From Candidatus Methylomirabilota bacterium (GTDB taxonomy: Bacteria > Methylomirabilota > Methylomirabilia > Rokubacteriales > DASRDR01): DNA of 36,644 nt. Below are positions 18,821 through 24,557 of the stretch, piece after piece (position 1 is the stretch's first letter; each line of letters begins with the position of its first letter). The translations under genes were made by a program, and so were the position numbers. The notes below the pieces were generated by a model. That model worked only from the letters and a program-made list of their open reading frames with translations. It ran no database searches and had not been told where the DNA came from. The DNA is taken from contig DASYQW010000107.1 of assembly GCA_036005065.1 (NCBI GenBank), positions 1 to 36,644 on the forward strand, in the 5' to 3' direction.

Positions 18821-19810
18821 TCACCGGATGAGCCCGATCTCGCGGAGGTAGCGCAGCGCGCCCGGATGGATGGCGTCCGCCCCCGGGGCGGCGGCGACGG
18901 TGTTGGCGGCCGTGGTCTCCCGCGCCTGGGGAAGGCGCCGGCCCAGCGCGGCCTCCCCCCGATGGAGCGCGCGGGCGAGACGATAGGCGACGTCGTCGGG
19001 CAGCGTGGGCCGGGCGAGGATCAGACTCCACGACCCGACCGACACGATCGGCGCGTCCTGTCCCGGATACGAGCCGGCCGGGACCGTCAGCGTCTTGAGG
19101 AAGGGGTACTTCGCCTGGATCCGTCGGATGCCCTCGGCGTCCGGCGCGATGAACCGGCCGCCCGCGGGTCCGCCGGCGACCGCGGTGAAGCCCGGCCATC
19201 CGATGCCGCCGCCCCACAGGGCGGCCACCGTGCCCTCCAGCACCATCGCCGGGCCGTCGCCCGCCCGCTCGAGGAAGACGGCCTGGAAGTCCCGGCTCAG
19301 GTCGAGGCCGAGCCCATCCAGGATGTTCCGGGCGAGGACGACGAGCCCCGAGCCCCGGGCGCCGAAGGCCACCGGCCGGGATCTGAGATCCTCGATCGTT
19401 CGGTACGGCGTGTCTCGGCGGACCACGAACATGCCCGCGGTGGCGTACATGGCGGACAGGACGCGGAGGTTCGCGGGCGGCCGGCCGATTCCGCTCAGCG
19501 CCTCGTGGGCCACCTCGCCGGCGACCAGCCCCAGGTCGAGCTGCCCGGCCTCGAGCATCGGGACGTTCTCGGTGCTGCCCTTCGTGTTTCGCGTTTCGAC
19601 GGACAGCGACGGGTCGACCTCGTTGATCGTCTCGGCCACGGCCTGTCCGTAGACCGGAAAGCCGCCGCCGGGGGTCGCGGTGCCGAGGATGACGGCGGTC
19701 TTCTCGGCCCCGGAAGCGCTGCTCCCCATGGAGAGCGCTCCCATCAAGGTCGCGACACTCAGGGCCAGGCACCCCATGGGTCCCGGCGGCCAGGATACGC
19801 GCTCGATCAT
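18821..19810 (-). CDS. TAXI family TRAP transporter solute-binding protein
   Basis: 329 residues. It opens MIERVSWPPGP, has a hydrophobic signal segment (about residues 12-33), then AVILGTATPGGGFPVYGQAVAETINE, typical of TAXI receptors. QLDLGLVAGEVAHEAL and a central DLRSRPVAFGARGSG block also fit. It binds an organic acid for a TRAP membrane protein (DctQM fusion) that is not in the window. AGGAGG precedes the ATG at 19810; an in-frame extension to 19924 crosses the palindromic divergent region and is rejected. The first 11 codons recur downstream of the MmgE/PrpD gene as a relic (23131-23163). Confidence 0.88.
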   Translation of the reverse strand: MIERVSWPPGPMGCLALSVATLMGALSMGSSASGAEKTAVILGTATPGGGFPVYGQAVAETINEVDPSLSVETRNTKGSTENVPMLEAGQLDLGLVAGEVAHEALSGIGRPPANLRVLSAMYATAGMFVVRRDTPYRTIEDLRSRPVAFGARGSGLVVLARNILDGLGLDLSRDFQAVFLERAGDGPAMVLEGTVAALWGGGIGWPGFTAVAGGPAGGRFIAPDAEGIRRIQAKYPFLKTLTVPAGSYPGQDAPIVSVGSWSLILARPTLPDDVAYRLARALHRGEAALGRRLPQARETTAANTVAAAPGADAIHPGALRYLREIGLIR

Positions 19811-19847
19811 GGTCGGCCTCCTCTGTGCCGCGAAAGATTGACTCCGG

Positions 19848-19873
19848 ACCCGAAAACGTGTTTTCGTTCGGGT
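19848..19873. promoter_or_regulatory. Nested palindrome in divergent intergenic region
   Basis: Outer arms ACCCGAA (19848-19854) and TTCGGGT (19867-19873) are perfect inverted repeats, and CGAAAAC (19851-19857) with GTTTTCG (19860-19866) forms an alternative inner palindrome. It is the only A/T-rich island in the 148 bp between the TAXI receptor and the LEA-like lipoprotein. On the plus strand TTGACT (19838-19843) lies just upstream at -35-like spacing. It looks like an operator for one or both genes; no regulator gene is adjacent. Confidence 0.45.
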
Positions 19874-19958
19874 GACGCGCGCCGGCGCGGGGCCCGACGT
19901 TCTCCGCGAAGGAGCCGCCAGCACTCCAGACGGATCCCTTCAACCGCGGGAGGTGGGT

Positions 19959-20813
19959 ATGCACCGCACCGCTTCGGTGCGAGGACTAGGCGCCGTCCTC
20001 TTGATCGCCGGGCTCGCCGGTTGCGAAGACCATCCCTCCGCGTCGGTGGTCGGCGCCCACATCACCGAGTTGACCACGGAGAAGGTCGGCGTCTCGCTCG
20101 ACGTCAAGATCGAGAACCCGTGGGTCTTTCCGCTCCCACTCGCGGAGGCGAAAGGGAGCCTCTTCAGCGCCCAGATCAACGCGACCGCCCCGTTCCTCCA
20201 GGTCGCCGGGGGCAGTACCGCTCCGGTCCCGCGGGCAGGGTCCCTCACGGTCCCCCTCAGAGGCACGCTCACCTACTGGCCACTCCCCTCGAACCTGGCC
20301 AACCTGCATCCTGGAGACGAGGTCCCTTACCAGGCGAAGCTCAAGCTCGCGCTGCAGACACCCCCGAACCAGCGGCTGGACCTGCCCGAACTCACCTACC
20401 ACGGCAAGATCCCCATCCTGGCTCCTCCGCAAGTGAGCATCAAGAGCGTGAGCTGGCCGACGTTCTCCTGGGAGAGGGTGAGTGGGACCGTGACGCTCGG
20501 GATCACGAACATGAACAGGTTCTCCATCGGTCCGGGAAGCGCTTCGGGAGAGCTGATCCTCAGGAAGCAGGCGTTCATGAGCGACGACAAGGAGCTCGCC
20601 AGCCTGTCGGCGGGCATGCCCGGCATGATTGCCGGCCACCACACGGGTGACCTCGGAATCACCGTATCCTTCAAGCCCGAAGACCTCTTCGACCTCGGGA
20701 CTTGGGCCGGGCTCGTGGTCGCCCTCGTGGACAACCACCAGTTCCGCGCACGGGGAAAAATCTCGGCCCAAACCTCCTATATCCCGGTCGAGCTGAAGTT
20801 CGATTCGCAATGA
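19959..20813 (+). CDS. LEA type 2/WHy-domain lipoprotein
   Basis: 284 residues. The signal peptide ends in a lipobox LAGC (Cys about residue 22), predicting a lipid anchor. The rest shows two WHy/LEA_2-like beta-sandwich repeats: VGVSLDVKIENPWVFPLPLAEAKGSLF near the start and VSGTVTLGITNMNRFSIGPGSASGELIL later, each with the N-P or N-x-N-x-F turn typical of this fold. Such domains in plants and bacteria are tied to desiccation stress or unknown envelope roles. GGGAGGTG precedes the ATG at 19959. It converges on the MurU-like gene with a gap of 10 bp. Confidence 0.85.
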   Translation: MHRTASVRGLGAVLLIAGLAGCEDHPSASVVGAHITELTTEKVGVSLDVKIENPWVFPLPLAEAKGSLFSAQINATAPFLQVAGGSTAPVPRAGSLTVPLRGTLTYWPLPSNLANLHPGDEVPYQAKLKLALQTPPNQRLDLPELTYHGKIPILAPPQVSIKSVSWPTFSWERVSGTVTLGITNMNRFSIGPGSASGELILRKQAFMSDDKELASLSAGMPGMIAGHHTGDLGITVSFKPEDLFDLGTWAGLVVALVDNHQFRARGKISAQTSYIPVELKFDSQ

Positions 20814-20819
20814 GGCGCG

Positions 20820-20831
20820 CGCTCTAGAGCG
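20820..20831. other. Short palindrome between converging genes
   Basis: CGCTCTAGAGCG is a perfect 12-bp palindrome between the LEA-like and MurU-like genes; its central CTA is the TAG stop of the MurU-like gene. No T-run follows, so terminator function is doubtful. Confidence 0.25.
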
Positions 20832-21561
20832 GCAGCCCCAGCTCCCTGACCTGCCGCCGGACGTCTTCCAGCTTGGCCGGGCTCCCGATGTCGGCCCAGT
20901 ACCACTCATCGGCCCGAAACGACTGGATTCTCTCACCGTGTCCAGCCAGGCGGAGATACGCGCGGATGATGGGGAAGGCTTTTCCCTCGCTCATCCGCGG
21001 AAAGATCTCCGGCGAGATGACATGGACGCCGGTGAACGCGAGGCGCTCGGCGCGCTCGACCGGAGCTCCTGCCCACAGTCGCGTGTTCTCGCCCACCGAT
21101 TCCCAGCCACAGAGCTGTCCCCGCCCATCGAACAAGAGATAGCGACGGCTCGTCTTCGCCTGGACCGCCAGCGTGGCCAGCGCCGGCCGGGCGAGGTGGA
21201 ACCGATACATCCGGCCCAGATCGATGTCGGTCACCACGTCGACGTTGTGCAGAAAGAACGGGGTGCCGTCGTCGAAGAAATGGGCGACCTTCTTCAGGCT
21301 GCCGCCGGTGTCCAGGAGCTCGGCCTCGCGCGACACCTCGATGCGGATCCCGAACTGCCGCTTGGACTCCAGGAAGTCCACGATCATCTCGGCCAGATGA
21401 AACACATTGACGACGATCTCGTCGACTCCGGCTTCGAGGAGCCGCCGGATCACGATCTCCAGCATCGGCACCCCGTTGAGCTCGATCAGCGCCTTGGGAC
21501 AGTGGTCGGTGAGGGGCCGGAGCCGGCTCCCGACGCCGGCGGCGAGGATCATCGCCTTCAT
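20824..21561 (-). CDS. murU: MurU-like sugar-1-phosphate nucleotidyltransferase
   Basis: 245 residues of the NTP_transferase family. It opens MKAMILAAGVGSRLRPLTDHCPKAL, the nucleotide-binding loop with GxGxRLRPLT and the Lys that contacts phosphate. NVDVVTDIDL contains the metal-binding Asp region. In the anabolic recycling route, MurU makes UDP-MurNAc from MurNAc-1-phosphate produced by AmgK. Here it lies 13 nt downstream of an AmgK-like kinase gene on the same strand, which favours MurU over glucose- or mannose-1-phosphate transferases that look similar. The symbol rests on this context as well as sequence. Confidence 0.82.
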   Translation of the reverse strand: MKAMILAAGVGSRLRPLTDHCPKALIELNGVPMLEIVIRRLLEAGVDEIVVNVFHLAEMIVDFLESKRQFGIRIEVSREAELLDTGGSLKKVAHFFDDGTPFFLHNVDVVTDIDLGRMYRFHLARPALATLAVQAKTSRRYLLFDGRGQLCGWESVGENTRLWAGAPVERAERLAFTGVHVISPEIFPRMSEGKAFPIIRAYLRLAGHGERIQSFRADEWYWADIGSPAKLEDVRRQVRELGLPL

Positions 21562-21574
21562 GGCGACGGCGCCG

Positions 21575-22996
21575 TCACGTGGCGGTCTCGATTCCCAGAT
21601 GCCGGATCTCGACGTTCACCTCGTATTTCTGGCGGAGGTGGCGGGCCAGCAGCTCCGCACAATAGATGGACCGATGCCGCCCGCCGGTACACCCGAAGGC
21701 CACCATCAGGTCCGTGAAGTTCCGGCTCCGATAGTTCTCGACCGACTGATCGATCAGCCCGTAGACGTGGTTCATGAAGCGCCGGACCTCGGACTGGGTC
21801 TCGAGAAAGGCGATCACCTCCGAGTCGGTGCCGGTGAGCCTGGCGAACTGGGCGTATCTCCCGGGGTTCGGCAAGGCGCGACAGTCGAACACGTACCCGC
21901 CCCCATGTCCCTTGTCGTCGCGCGGCAGGCCGCTGCGATACGAAAAGCTCTGTATCCGCACGGTCAGCTTCAGCTCCGCGTCCCCGAACTGGCGCAGGTA
22001 GGTGGAGCCCACCAGGCGCCGGAAGACCTCCATCAGCTCGGGCAGCGCCACCGGGAGCTCGACCGTGCGCAGAAGAAACTCGAGATTGCCGACGGCGTAG
22101 GGAATGCTCTGGAGAAAGTGCGTCTTGCGTTCGTAGAAGCCCCGCAGGCCGTAGGCGCCCATCGCCTGCATGATGCGGATGTAGACGTACCCGTAGTAGT
22201 AGCGGAGGAACTCTTCGCGGGCCAACGGGATCAAGGCCGCGGCCGCCGCCAGGTACCGGTCGAGGAGCGTGTCCCGCAGGTCGGGCGGCAGATCGGCTTT
22301 GGCGTCGAACAGGAGCGAGGCGATGTCGTACTGGAGCGCACCCCGGCGGCCTCCCTGGTAGTCGATGAAGCAAGGCGCCCCGTCCTTGAGCATGATGTTT
22401 CGCGATTGAAAGTCGCGATAGAGGAAGAAATCCCGGTCGGCCGCCAGGAGAAAATCCATGAGTCGCTCGAAGTCGTCTTCGAGCGCCTGCTCGTTGAAGG
22501 GGATCTGGGCCAGCCGCAGGAAGTAGTACTTGAAGTAGTTCAGATCCCACGCCATCGATTGCCGGTCGAAACTGGGCCGGGGATAGCAGACCTGGTAGTT
22601 CAGCGTCCTTCCGGCCACGATCTGGAACTGCGGCAGCAGCTCGACCACCCGCTCGTAGATGTCGACGACGCGCCCGGATGGGCCGACCCTGGTTCGGTTC
22701 TCCGAAAGGTACTGGAACAGCGTCGTATCCCCCAGGTCTTCTTCCAGATAGATGCCGCGGGCCGGGTCGTCCGCGTAGATCTCGGGCACGGGAAGGCCCG
22801 ATCGGCGAAAATGCCTCGAGAACGCGAGGAAGGCCGTATTCTCCTGCCGATCGGGGCCGGCGACGCCGATGACGCTGCGGGTCCCGGTGGTCAGGCGATA
22901 GAGGCTCCGCCCCGAGCCGTCGCCCTTCAAAGCGGAGATGGTCTGGACGGGCTCTCCGAAGTGACTCTCGAAGAATTGCCTGAGTGAGTCGTCCAT
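21575..22996 (-). CDS. AmgK-like sugar kinase fused to RapZ C-terminal domain
   Basis: 473 residues. Residues 1-330 form an aminoglycoside-phosphotransferase-like kinase of the AmgK type, with catalytic Asp195 in FLYRDFQSRNIML and metal-binding Asp212 in FIDYQGG. AmgK phosphorylates the anomeric carbon of MurNAc or GlcNAc. Residues 343-469 match the RapZ C-terminal domain: FDCRALPNPG (370-379) and the glycine loop FGCTGGRHRS (434-443). In E. coli RapZ this domain binds glucosamine-6-phosphate and the sRNAs GlmY/GlmZ. The N-terminal P-loop domain of RapZ is absent. The ATG at 22996 gives the normal kinase start; the ribosome site is weak. MurU-like follows 13 nt later. Confidence 0.88.
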   Translation of the reverse strand: MDDSLRQFFESHFGEPVQTISALKGDGSGRSLYRLTTGTRSVIGVAGPDRQENTAFLAFSRHFRRSGLPVPEIYADDPARGIYLEEDLGDTTLFQYLSENRTRVGPSGRVVDIYERVVELLPQFQIVAGRTLNYQVCYPRPSFDRQSMAWDLNYFKYYFLRLAQIPFNEQALEDDFERLMDFLLAADRDFFLYRDFQSRNIMLKDGAPCFIDYQGGRRGALQYDIASLLFDAKADLPPDLRDTLLDRYLAAAAALIPLAREEFLRYYYGYVYIRIMQAMGAYGLRGFYERKTHFLQSIPYAVGNLEFLLRTVELPVALPELMEVFRRLVGSTYLRQFGDAELKLTVRIQSFSYRSGLPRDDKGHGGGYVFDCRALPNPGRYAQFARLTGTDSEVIAFLETQSEVRRFMNHVYGLIDQSVENYRSRNFTDLMVAFGCTGGRHRSIYCAELLARHLRQKYEVNVEIRHLGIETAT

Positions 22997-23130: not shown

Positions 23131-23163
23131 GGGTCCCGGGGGCCAGGACACCCGCTCGATCAT
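23131..23163 (-). pseudogene. Relic of a TAXI binding-protein gene start
   Basis: The codons read MIERVSWPPGP, identical to the first 11 residues of the TAXI receptor at 19810. Of 33 bases 30 match, and the three differences are all silent third-position changes. After this point the frame bears no similarity and runs out of frame into the kinase gene. The ATG overlaps the MmgE/PrpD stop as ATGA. The simplest reading is that a second TAXI gene once followed MmgE/PrpD and was deleted. Confidence 0.6.
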
Positions 23164-24557
23164 GATCGGTGCCCGGGGGTCGTGAGAGAGGCGAGCAGGT
23201 CGGTGAGGGGCTCGCCGGTGGCGAGGCCGTTCACGCTCCGGATGACGCGCTCAACCTGCTCGGAGGGCAGGGCGAGGACCGCGTTGCCGCGAAACTTGGC
23301 CTCCACTTCCCCGCGCGTCAGGGGGAGGTCGGGACCGCCCCGCGGGCGATCCTGACGATCGTGGACGCGCCGCCCGTCGGCGAGGGTCATCTCCACGTCA
23401 CCGACGAACTGACGCGGATAATCGATCGTCGGATCCAGCTCGTAGGTGACCCGCTGGGCCAGGCCGAGCACGGCCGGGTCGCGGACCGCCTCGTCGGTGA
23501 ACTCCGCGAGCCCCGCCCGGCCCTTGACCAGGATCACGGCCAGCAGGTACGGGAGGCTGAACTTCGCCGCGTACCCGTTCGGCGGCGCGTGCTTGGCCGC
23601 CAGCGGCTCCCAGAGTCGAGGCACGGGCCCGGCCGCGGTGCGGCAGCGGATGCCGGCGACCTCGTCGGGACGGACGCGGTGGCGCTCGCGCAACCGGAGG
23701 GCGACGTCCATGTACGGCTGGGCGATCGATCCGCAGGGATAGGGCTTGAGGGTGAGCTGCTCGAGCTCCCAGGCGCGGCCGAGGCTCTCGACCAGCTCGC
23801 GCAGCCGGCCGGCGTCGTGACCGCCGGCGAACGCCTGGTACAGGCCGTGCGGGCCTTCGAAGACGGTCGCGGGCCCGCTGAAGCCCGACCGGGCCAGCAG
23901 CGTGGCGACGACGCCGCCGTGGGCGGCCCAGCCGGGGTGGAGCCGCTTCGTCCACGAGCCATCGGTCAGGTACTCGATGATCCCGCTGGCCTGGCTTCCG
24001 CAGATCCCGAAGGCGTGGACGAGCTGGTCTTCGGACAGCCCGAAGAGCTTCCCGGCGGCGGCGGCCGCGGCGAAGGTCCCGGCGATGGCGGTGGGGTGGA
24101 AGTGGCGGGCGTGGAGCGCGCCGGGGACCGTCAGGCCGACACGACACATCACCTCGACGCCGGCGATCAGCGCCTCGAGGACCGTCCGTCCGCTGGCCCC
24201 CACGGCCTCGCCCACCGCCAGCGCCGTGGTGACGGCGACACAGCCCGTGTGGACGATGGCGTCCTCCCGCGTGTCGTCGAAGTCGAGACCGTGGGCGAGG
24301 GTGGCGTTGGCGAGGACCGCATTGGCCGCCGCCACCTTCGCCGCGCTGCCGAGCAGCGTGCTCTCGGGCGGTCCTCCCAAGCGCTCCGCGACCCCGCGAA
24401 CCGCGCGTCCGAAGTCTTCCCCGGAAGCGGCCAGGGAGTTGCCGAGCGTGTCGAGGGCGAGCAGCATCGCCTGGGTCGCGACCGGGTCCGGGACCTCGTC
24501 CAGCGCGAGGCCGACGACGAAGCGGGCGAAGTGCCTGGCCGCAGTCGGCTGCGTCAC
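23160..24557 (-). CDS. MmgE/PrpD family protein
   Basis: 465 residues, the usual family length. PrpD dehydrates 2-methylcitrate and MmgE is related; cis-aconitate decarboxylase also belongs here. Visible blocks: ANATLAHGLDFDDT near residue 85 (the family His-Asp region), GLTVPGALHARHFHPTAIAGTFAAAAAAGKL with the HPTA segment, and LKPYPCGSIAQPYMDVAL. The start is GTG at 24557 with a poor ribosome site. In environmental genomes such proteins often sit beside Tct or TAXI receptors, and here the Tct operon starts divergently 135 bp away. The C-terminus overlaps a TAXI-gene relic. The substrate is probably an organic acid of unknown identity. Confidence 0.9.
   Translation of the reverse strand: MTQPTAARHFARFVVGLALDEVPDPVATQAMLLALDTLGNSLAASGEDFGRAVRGVAERLGGPPESTLLGSAAKVAAANAVLANATLAHGLDFDDTREDAIVHTGCVAVTTALAVGEAVGASGRTVLEALIAGVEVMCRVGLTVPGALHARHFHPTAIAGTFAAAAAAGKLFGLSEDQLVHAFGICGSQASGIIEYLTDGSWTKRLHPGWAAHGGVVATLLARSGFSGPATVFEGPHGLYQAFAGGHDAGRLRELVESLGRAWELEQLTLKPYPCGSIAQPYMDVALRLRERHRVRPDEVAGIRCRTAAGPVPRLWEPLAAKHAPPNGYAAKFSLPYLLAVILVKGRAGLAEFTDEAVRDPAVLGLAQRVTYELDPTIDYPRQFVGDVEMTLADGRRVHDRQDRPRGGPDLPLTRGEVEAKFRGNAVLALPSEQVERVIRSVNGLATGEPLTDLLASLTTPGHRS

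Follow-up and report, generated by a model that had tools for sequence, protein, structure and literature searches.

A RapZ C-terminal domain fused to an AmgK-like kinase ahead of a MurU-like gene: a candidate sugar-phosphate phosphatase in cell-wall recycling

Work on RapZ has treated it as a regulator of GlmS that binds RNA, although the RNA-binding region, like GlmY/GlmZ, is confined to Enterobacteriaceae (PMC7073468). What does its C-terminal domain (RapZ_C) do when it is joined to a kinase of the AmgK type in a genome of Candidatus Methylomirabilota? We asked this of a gene pair within a contig of 36,644 nucleotides (hereafter the window). Salvage through AmgK and MurU sidesteps the de novo synthesis of UDP-MurNAc and confers intrinsic fosfomycin resistance in Pseudomonas; AmgK needs free MurNAc, whereas AnmK makes MurNAc-6-phosphate (MurNAc-6-P), from which MupP removes the phosphate in Pseudomonas (PMC5371407). 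Below, we argue from sequence comparisons that RapZ_C may be a cysteine phosphatase acting on sugar phosphates.

Architecture of the gene pair

The fusion gene (21575..22996, minus strand) starts with ATG, encodes 473 aa and has full-length homologues. Its residues 1-335 (21992..22996, minus strand) form an AmgK-like APH kinase domain: Pfam model PF01636 matched residues 21-252 (E 7e-15), and a phmmer search of PDB sequences matched residues 2-321 to the APH structure 3csv (E 1e-20). AmgK (NF045759, E 1e-18) was the top NCBIfam model for this half, at 67 bits, below the equivalog cut-off of 550. The catalytic loop reads YRDFQSRN (residues 193-200; 22397..22420, minus strand), and the motif [YF]RDFQ[SA]RN is present in 101/102 fused kinases, compared with HRDFH in AmgK (as in 3csv). 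Judged by profiles and motif, the kinase half is predicted to have the APH fold and catalytic loop expected of an AmgK. RapZ_C follows at residues 344-467 (21596..21967, minus strand), where PF22740 matched with E 1.5e-34 and 119 bits against a gathering score of 27; residues 328-470 also matched E. coli RapZ in the PDB sequence search. The protein does not have the RapZ architecture, because RapZ of E. coli and YvcJ of B. subtilis carry an N-terminal P-loop domain where the fusion has an APH kinase; against the RapZ model NF003828 it scored 109 bits, below 244.

Thirteen nucleotides separate the stop codon of the fusion gene from the start of the MurU-like nucleotidyltransferase gene (20824..21561, minus strand; ATG, 245 aa). 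MurU (NF045761) was its top NCBIfam model, with E 1.5e-40 and 140 bits, below the equivalog cut-off of 250, and the protein matched the structures 4y7t (E 4e-27) and 8hhd. The deposition label of 4y7t is nucleotidyl transferase; we take it to be MurU and group 8hhd with it as a presumed MurU-type structure. The initial annotation had described an AmgK-like kinase fused to RapZ_C and paired with MurU, which these ORF, Pfam and NCBIfam results bear out. The pair thus resembles the AmgK-MurU pathway of Pseudomonas, Caulobacter and Tannerella, a route avoiding MurQ in which an APH kinase likewise adjoins a MurU-type nucleotidyltransferase, but differs from it in the RapZ_C on the kinase and in a sequence far below the AmgK cut-off. 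Elsewhere, the window genome encodes a complete separate RapZ, as well as AnmK beside MurQ on contig C84, so both recycling routes seem present.

On either side of the locus, minus-strand genes at 18821-19924 and 23160-24557 encode an NMT1-like (TAXI-type) solute-binding protein and an MmgE/PrpD protein, with no obvious tie to cell-wall recycling. A LEA_2-domain protein with a likely lipoprotein signal at its start is encoded at 19872-20813 on the plus strand, convergent with the MurU gene.

An old and widespread combination

The AmgK-RapZ_C fusion is neither a chance event nor an assembly artefact, since six Methylomirabilota genomes and at least 80 loci across phyla carry it. Among 95 Methylomirabilota genomes, six have the fusion, and the five other proteins are 69-71% identical to that of the window over their full length. 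In a contig scan, the query had at least 493 relatives, of which the best 80, belonging to Methylomirabilota, Elusimicrobia, Acidobacteria, KSB1, Neomarinimicrobiota, Caldithrix and Ignavibacteria, share 57-70% identity with it along almost the entire length. The fusion is also present in Bacteroidota. Hence, the combination is old and widespread rather than an oddity. A murU gene adjoins the fusion in 76 of the 79 loci with room for one; beyond murU, no neighbor is shared between phyla, and the remaining neighbors are lineage-specific only. No paper in the literature collection that we searched mentions RapZ and AmgK together.

A sample of 248 Bacteroidota genomes gave a finer view of how domain and kinase travel together. 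The kinase is present in 60 of them, about 22 with RapZ_C fused, 4 with it as a separate gene and about 33 without it. RapZ_C occurred only where the kinase occurs (26/26), versus 0/53 other genomes, and the sampled Bacteroidota have no free RapZ. At two loci (L153 and L154), three genes stand in the order kinase, RapZ_C, murU, and in one genome (G307) the separate RapZ_C gene lies away from the kinase. Free RapZ was likewise not seen in fusion genomes of the KSB1, Neomarinimicrobiota, Caldithrix and Ignavibacteria type, whereas Acidobacteria, Elusimicrobia and Methylomirabilota have the fusion plus free RapZ. Ten Rokubacteria-like loci (L003-L012), from the order to which the window genome belongs, carry a different fusion of ~600 aa, MurU first and then AmgK, without RapZ_C. 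At one further locus (L138, genome G158), a TAA between kinase and RapZ_C splits the fusion and leaves RapZ_C as a separate 134-aa frame.

A distinct RapZ_C clade with an invariant CX5R loop

An AF2 model of RapZ_C built from 71 sequences reached pLDDT 90 and pTM 0.85; one built without an alignment (pLDDT 52) was set aside. Foldseek aligned the model to RapZ structure 5o5s with a target-normalized TM of 0.94, an rmsd of 1.7 Å and 38% identity. After RapZ, only PFK-like and other matches with E 0.35 or worse were returned. The confident model and its closeness to RapZ-CTD indicate that the ligand pocket, whose absence from a model would have counted against the initial annotation, is not lost. 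In a tree of 107 sequences, kinase-linked and free RapZ_C are split with 100/100 support across a long branch, and the RapZ_C genes that stand apart from the kinase nest among the fused ones.

The two signatures that the initial annotation had pointed out, FDCRALPNP and GCTGGRHRS, are both where it had placed them. FDCRALPNP (residues 370-378; 21863..21889, minus strand) is followed in the alignment by Gly379-Arg380, which replace His190-Trp191 of RapZ. CTGGRHRS (residues 436-443; 21668..21691, minus strand) corresponds to C247-S254 of RapZ and forms a CX5R(S) loop that, from motif and model, is a putative anion-binding site. In E. coli numbering, C247, T248, G249, G250, H252, R253, S254 and H276 do not vary among 102 fused, 4 split and 50 free sequences; the free set was chosen by a loop pattern that admits either Cys or Arg where the Cys stands. 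The C..G..R[ST] loop is present in 157/157 RapZ_C sequences. Position 190, in contrast to the loop, is Gly in 102/102 fused and 4/4 split sequences, and position 191 is Arg or Lys in the same sets; three more fused sequences outside the pattern keep the Cys, one of them with Gln at the W191 position. Of the E. coli anion pocket (H190, T248, G249, H252 and R253), four of five residues are therefore kept; H190 varies in free RapZ too. Kinase-linked RapZ_C further differs from the domain in RapZ and YvcJ, with which it shares the Cys-Thr-Gly-Gly-x-His-Arg-Ser loop, by an extra Gly-rich loop that free RapZ lacks in the alignments (DKGHGGG, residues 361-367; 21896..21916, minus strand), by Phe at R238 (all 102 fused sequences) and mostly Arg at N236, and by the absence of the basic RNA-binding C-terminal tail, the protein ending NVEIRHLGIETAT. 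F181 and D182 of the RapZ-CTD dimer interface are conserved.

Several properties of the loop suggest a phosphate site. The AF2 model, assigned with DSSP, predicts a strand-loop-helix in which the Cys ends the strand and the Arg starts the helix. Crystals of RapZ-CTD hold sulfate or malonate at the same place (PMC5737377). Either C247A or C247S inactivates E. coli RapZ; a catalytic -SH was suggested by the authors, and a 'chemically transformed product' was reported in the pocket of the CTD with GlcN6P (PMC9841335). PTP, LMW-PTP and Cdc25 have the same arrangement, C-X2-G-X2-R-S with a strand before it and a helix after it, and in RapZ_C it lies at the RapZ sulfate site; the overall fold, however, is not PTP-like, and the residue before the Cys is Gly rather than the His of classical PTPs. 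CX5R loops occur in several folds. Common descent with known cysteine phosphatases finds no support from Foldseek, as no cysteine phosphatase fold is among the 50 matches listed for the model. According to PMC7525490, YvcJ is both an NTPase and a phosphatase, and the title of Cui 2018, cited there, names HpaP of Xanthomonas as an ATPase and phosphatase. Nowhere in the literature that we read is the phosphatase activity of either protein mapped to the C-terminal domain, and it could reside in the N-terminal NTPase domain instead. The initial annotation had overlooked the CX5R motif, as well as the breadth of the distribution.

A phosphatase, a sensor or a scaffold

Architecture, conservation, operon, clade, motif and distribution are what we observed directly. 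The gene pair very probably has an AmgK-like salvage role, as an anabolic peptidoglycan-sugar module with MurNAc as the presumed kinase substrate. Tentatively, we suggest that RapZ_C, fused to AmgK ahead of MurU, acts as a MurNAc-6-P phosphatase. In the proposed scheme, AnmK or another 6-kinase would supply MurNAc-6-P; RapZ_C, with the CX5R loop as its anion (phosphate) site, would act as a cysteine-dependent sugar-6-phosphate phosphatase and release MurNAc for the attached kinase; the kinase would phosphorylate the anomeric carbon of MurNAc, and possibly GlcNAc too, as AmgK does; and MurU would then make UDP-MurNAc. RapZ_C would in this way perform the step of MupP of Pseudomonas, an HAD enzyme of an unrelated family. 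We favor the proposal because RapZ_C accompanies the kinase and murU, either fused or as a gene between them; because kinase and nucleotidyltransferase best match the AmgK and MurU models; because the CX5R loop lies at a sulfate/malonate site; because C247A and C247S kill RapZ and phosphatase activity is reported for YvcJ and, in a title, for HpaP; and because AnmK is mostly present with RapZ_C and absent from kinase-only genomes.

The last argument needs care. With kinase-linked RapZ_C, AnmK is found in 5/6 Methylomirabilota, 28/33 genomes of other phyla, and 14/22 fused and 4/4 split Bacteroidota, whereas none of the 10 Rokubacteria-like genomes with the MurU-AmgK fusion has it. Within Bacteroidota, the contrast is 18/26 with kinase-linked RapZ_C against 0/33 kinase-only (Fisher 2e-9, ignoring shared ancestry); the kinase-only genomes are probably from few lineages, so the comparison is not phylogenetically independent. 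AnmK is also frequent in Bacteroidota that lack the kinase (16/20), so it does not mark the fusion specifically, and we rejected it in that role; the informative part is its absence where the kinase lacks RapZ_C. Thirteen RapZ_C genomes have AnmK and no full-length MurQ match, so their MurNAc-6-P needs another outlet. Many fusion genomes do have MurQ, that of the window included, which gives MurNAc-6-P another outlet and counts against a phosphatase. In nine fusion genomes, both AnmK and a full-length MurQ are missing. Of the AnmK-lacking Bacteroidota fusion genomes that we examined, five (L183, L185, L186, L188 and L189) encode a BadF kinase immediately next to an AmpG-family or AmpG-like transporter. 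The BadF kinases of AnmK-lacking genomes are closest to NagK, so a source of sugar-6-phosphate may still exist, although appealing to them is a post hoc argument. Fusion genomes may also contain a HAD-type MupP, HAD phosphatases being ubiquitous.

The main rival, only slightly less probable in our view, is that RapZ_C is a non-catalytic sensor of an amino-sugar phosphate or UDP-sugar that switches the kinase so that salvage follows precursor supply, much as the initial annotation had envisaged. E. coli RapZ-CTD responds to GlcN6P, which it binds with a KD of about 10 nM (PMC7073468), YvcJ binds UDP-GlcNAc (PMC7525490), T248, G249, H252 and R253 are invariant in kinase-linked RapZ_C, and fusion or operon ties the domain to the kinase. 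These facts keep amino-sugar-phosphate sensing plausible, but with Gly for His190 the pocket may not accommodate the ligand of the E. coli protein, and specificity for GlcN6P cannot be assumed. Sensing, moreover, requires no invariant Cys, while C247S kills E. coli RapZ, and stand-alone RapZ_C genes in the operon are a less natural arrangement for an attached gate. Invariance of the loop bears equally on the suggestion, which we consider unlikely, that RapZ_C is a dimerization or scaffolding domain holding the kinase, perhaps with MurU, together around a vestigial pocket: such a pocket would not retain CTGGxHRS in all sequences, and conservation peaks there and not at the interface, even though RapZ-CTD forms dimers (PMC5737377), F181 and D182 are kept, and other lineages have AmgK-like kinases that do without RapZ_C.

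The distance of kinase and MurU from the curated equivalog cut-offs leaves some room for a pair that acts on another sugar, e.g., another hexosamine, outside peptidoglycan salvage. We regard this as very improbable, given that AmgK and MurU are the top curated models and that the same genomes carry AnmK, NagK-like kinase or AmpG genes. Least credible of all is the other idea in the initial annotation, binding of an sRNA or mRNA by RapZ_C through which recycling would be coupled to the expression of GlmS. RapZ-CTD does bind GlmY/GlmZ in E. coli (PMC5737377, PMC9841335), where H190 is required for GlmZ handling (PMC9841335). Gly for His190, Arg/Lys for Trp191 and the missing tail make RNA binding unlikely here; Phe for R238 and the mostly Arg position 236 weaken it further, as do the enterobacterial restriction of the RNA-binding region and the absence of any Rfam match within the window. 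A sugar-phosphate phosphatase or a sensor is thus more likely than an RNA binder.

If RapZ_C is a phosphatase, its reach could be wider, although we find the full extension rather unlikely: a new family of CX5R sugar-phosphate phosphatases, in which the AmgK fusion would be bifunctional, converting MurNAc-6-P to MurNAc-1-P and thereby providing, in several phyla, the step of MupP, and in which RapZ would be ancestrally a phosphatase that acquired RNA binding late, in enterobacteria. The fusion does suggest a supplier of the MurNAc-6-P phosphatase step outside Proteobacteria. More generally, in phyla without free RapZ, the clade physically ties RapZ_C to a defined amino-sugar pathway, and it offers a shortlist of substrates, an assay (sugar-6-phosphate hydrolysis and kinase gating) and a candidate catalytic residue.

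One lineage-specific neighbor bears on the pathway. At 15 Elusimicrobiota loci (among them L065, L077, L085, L087, L094, L099, L103 and L121), a gene of the YhcH/YjgK/YiaL family, a NanQ-type anomerase, lies shortly downstream of murU, which fits a free reducing sugar as a pathway intermediate. At 11 of these loci, it adjoins a gene for a small, helical-looking protein of ~135 aa that belongs to no known family.
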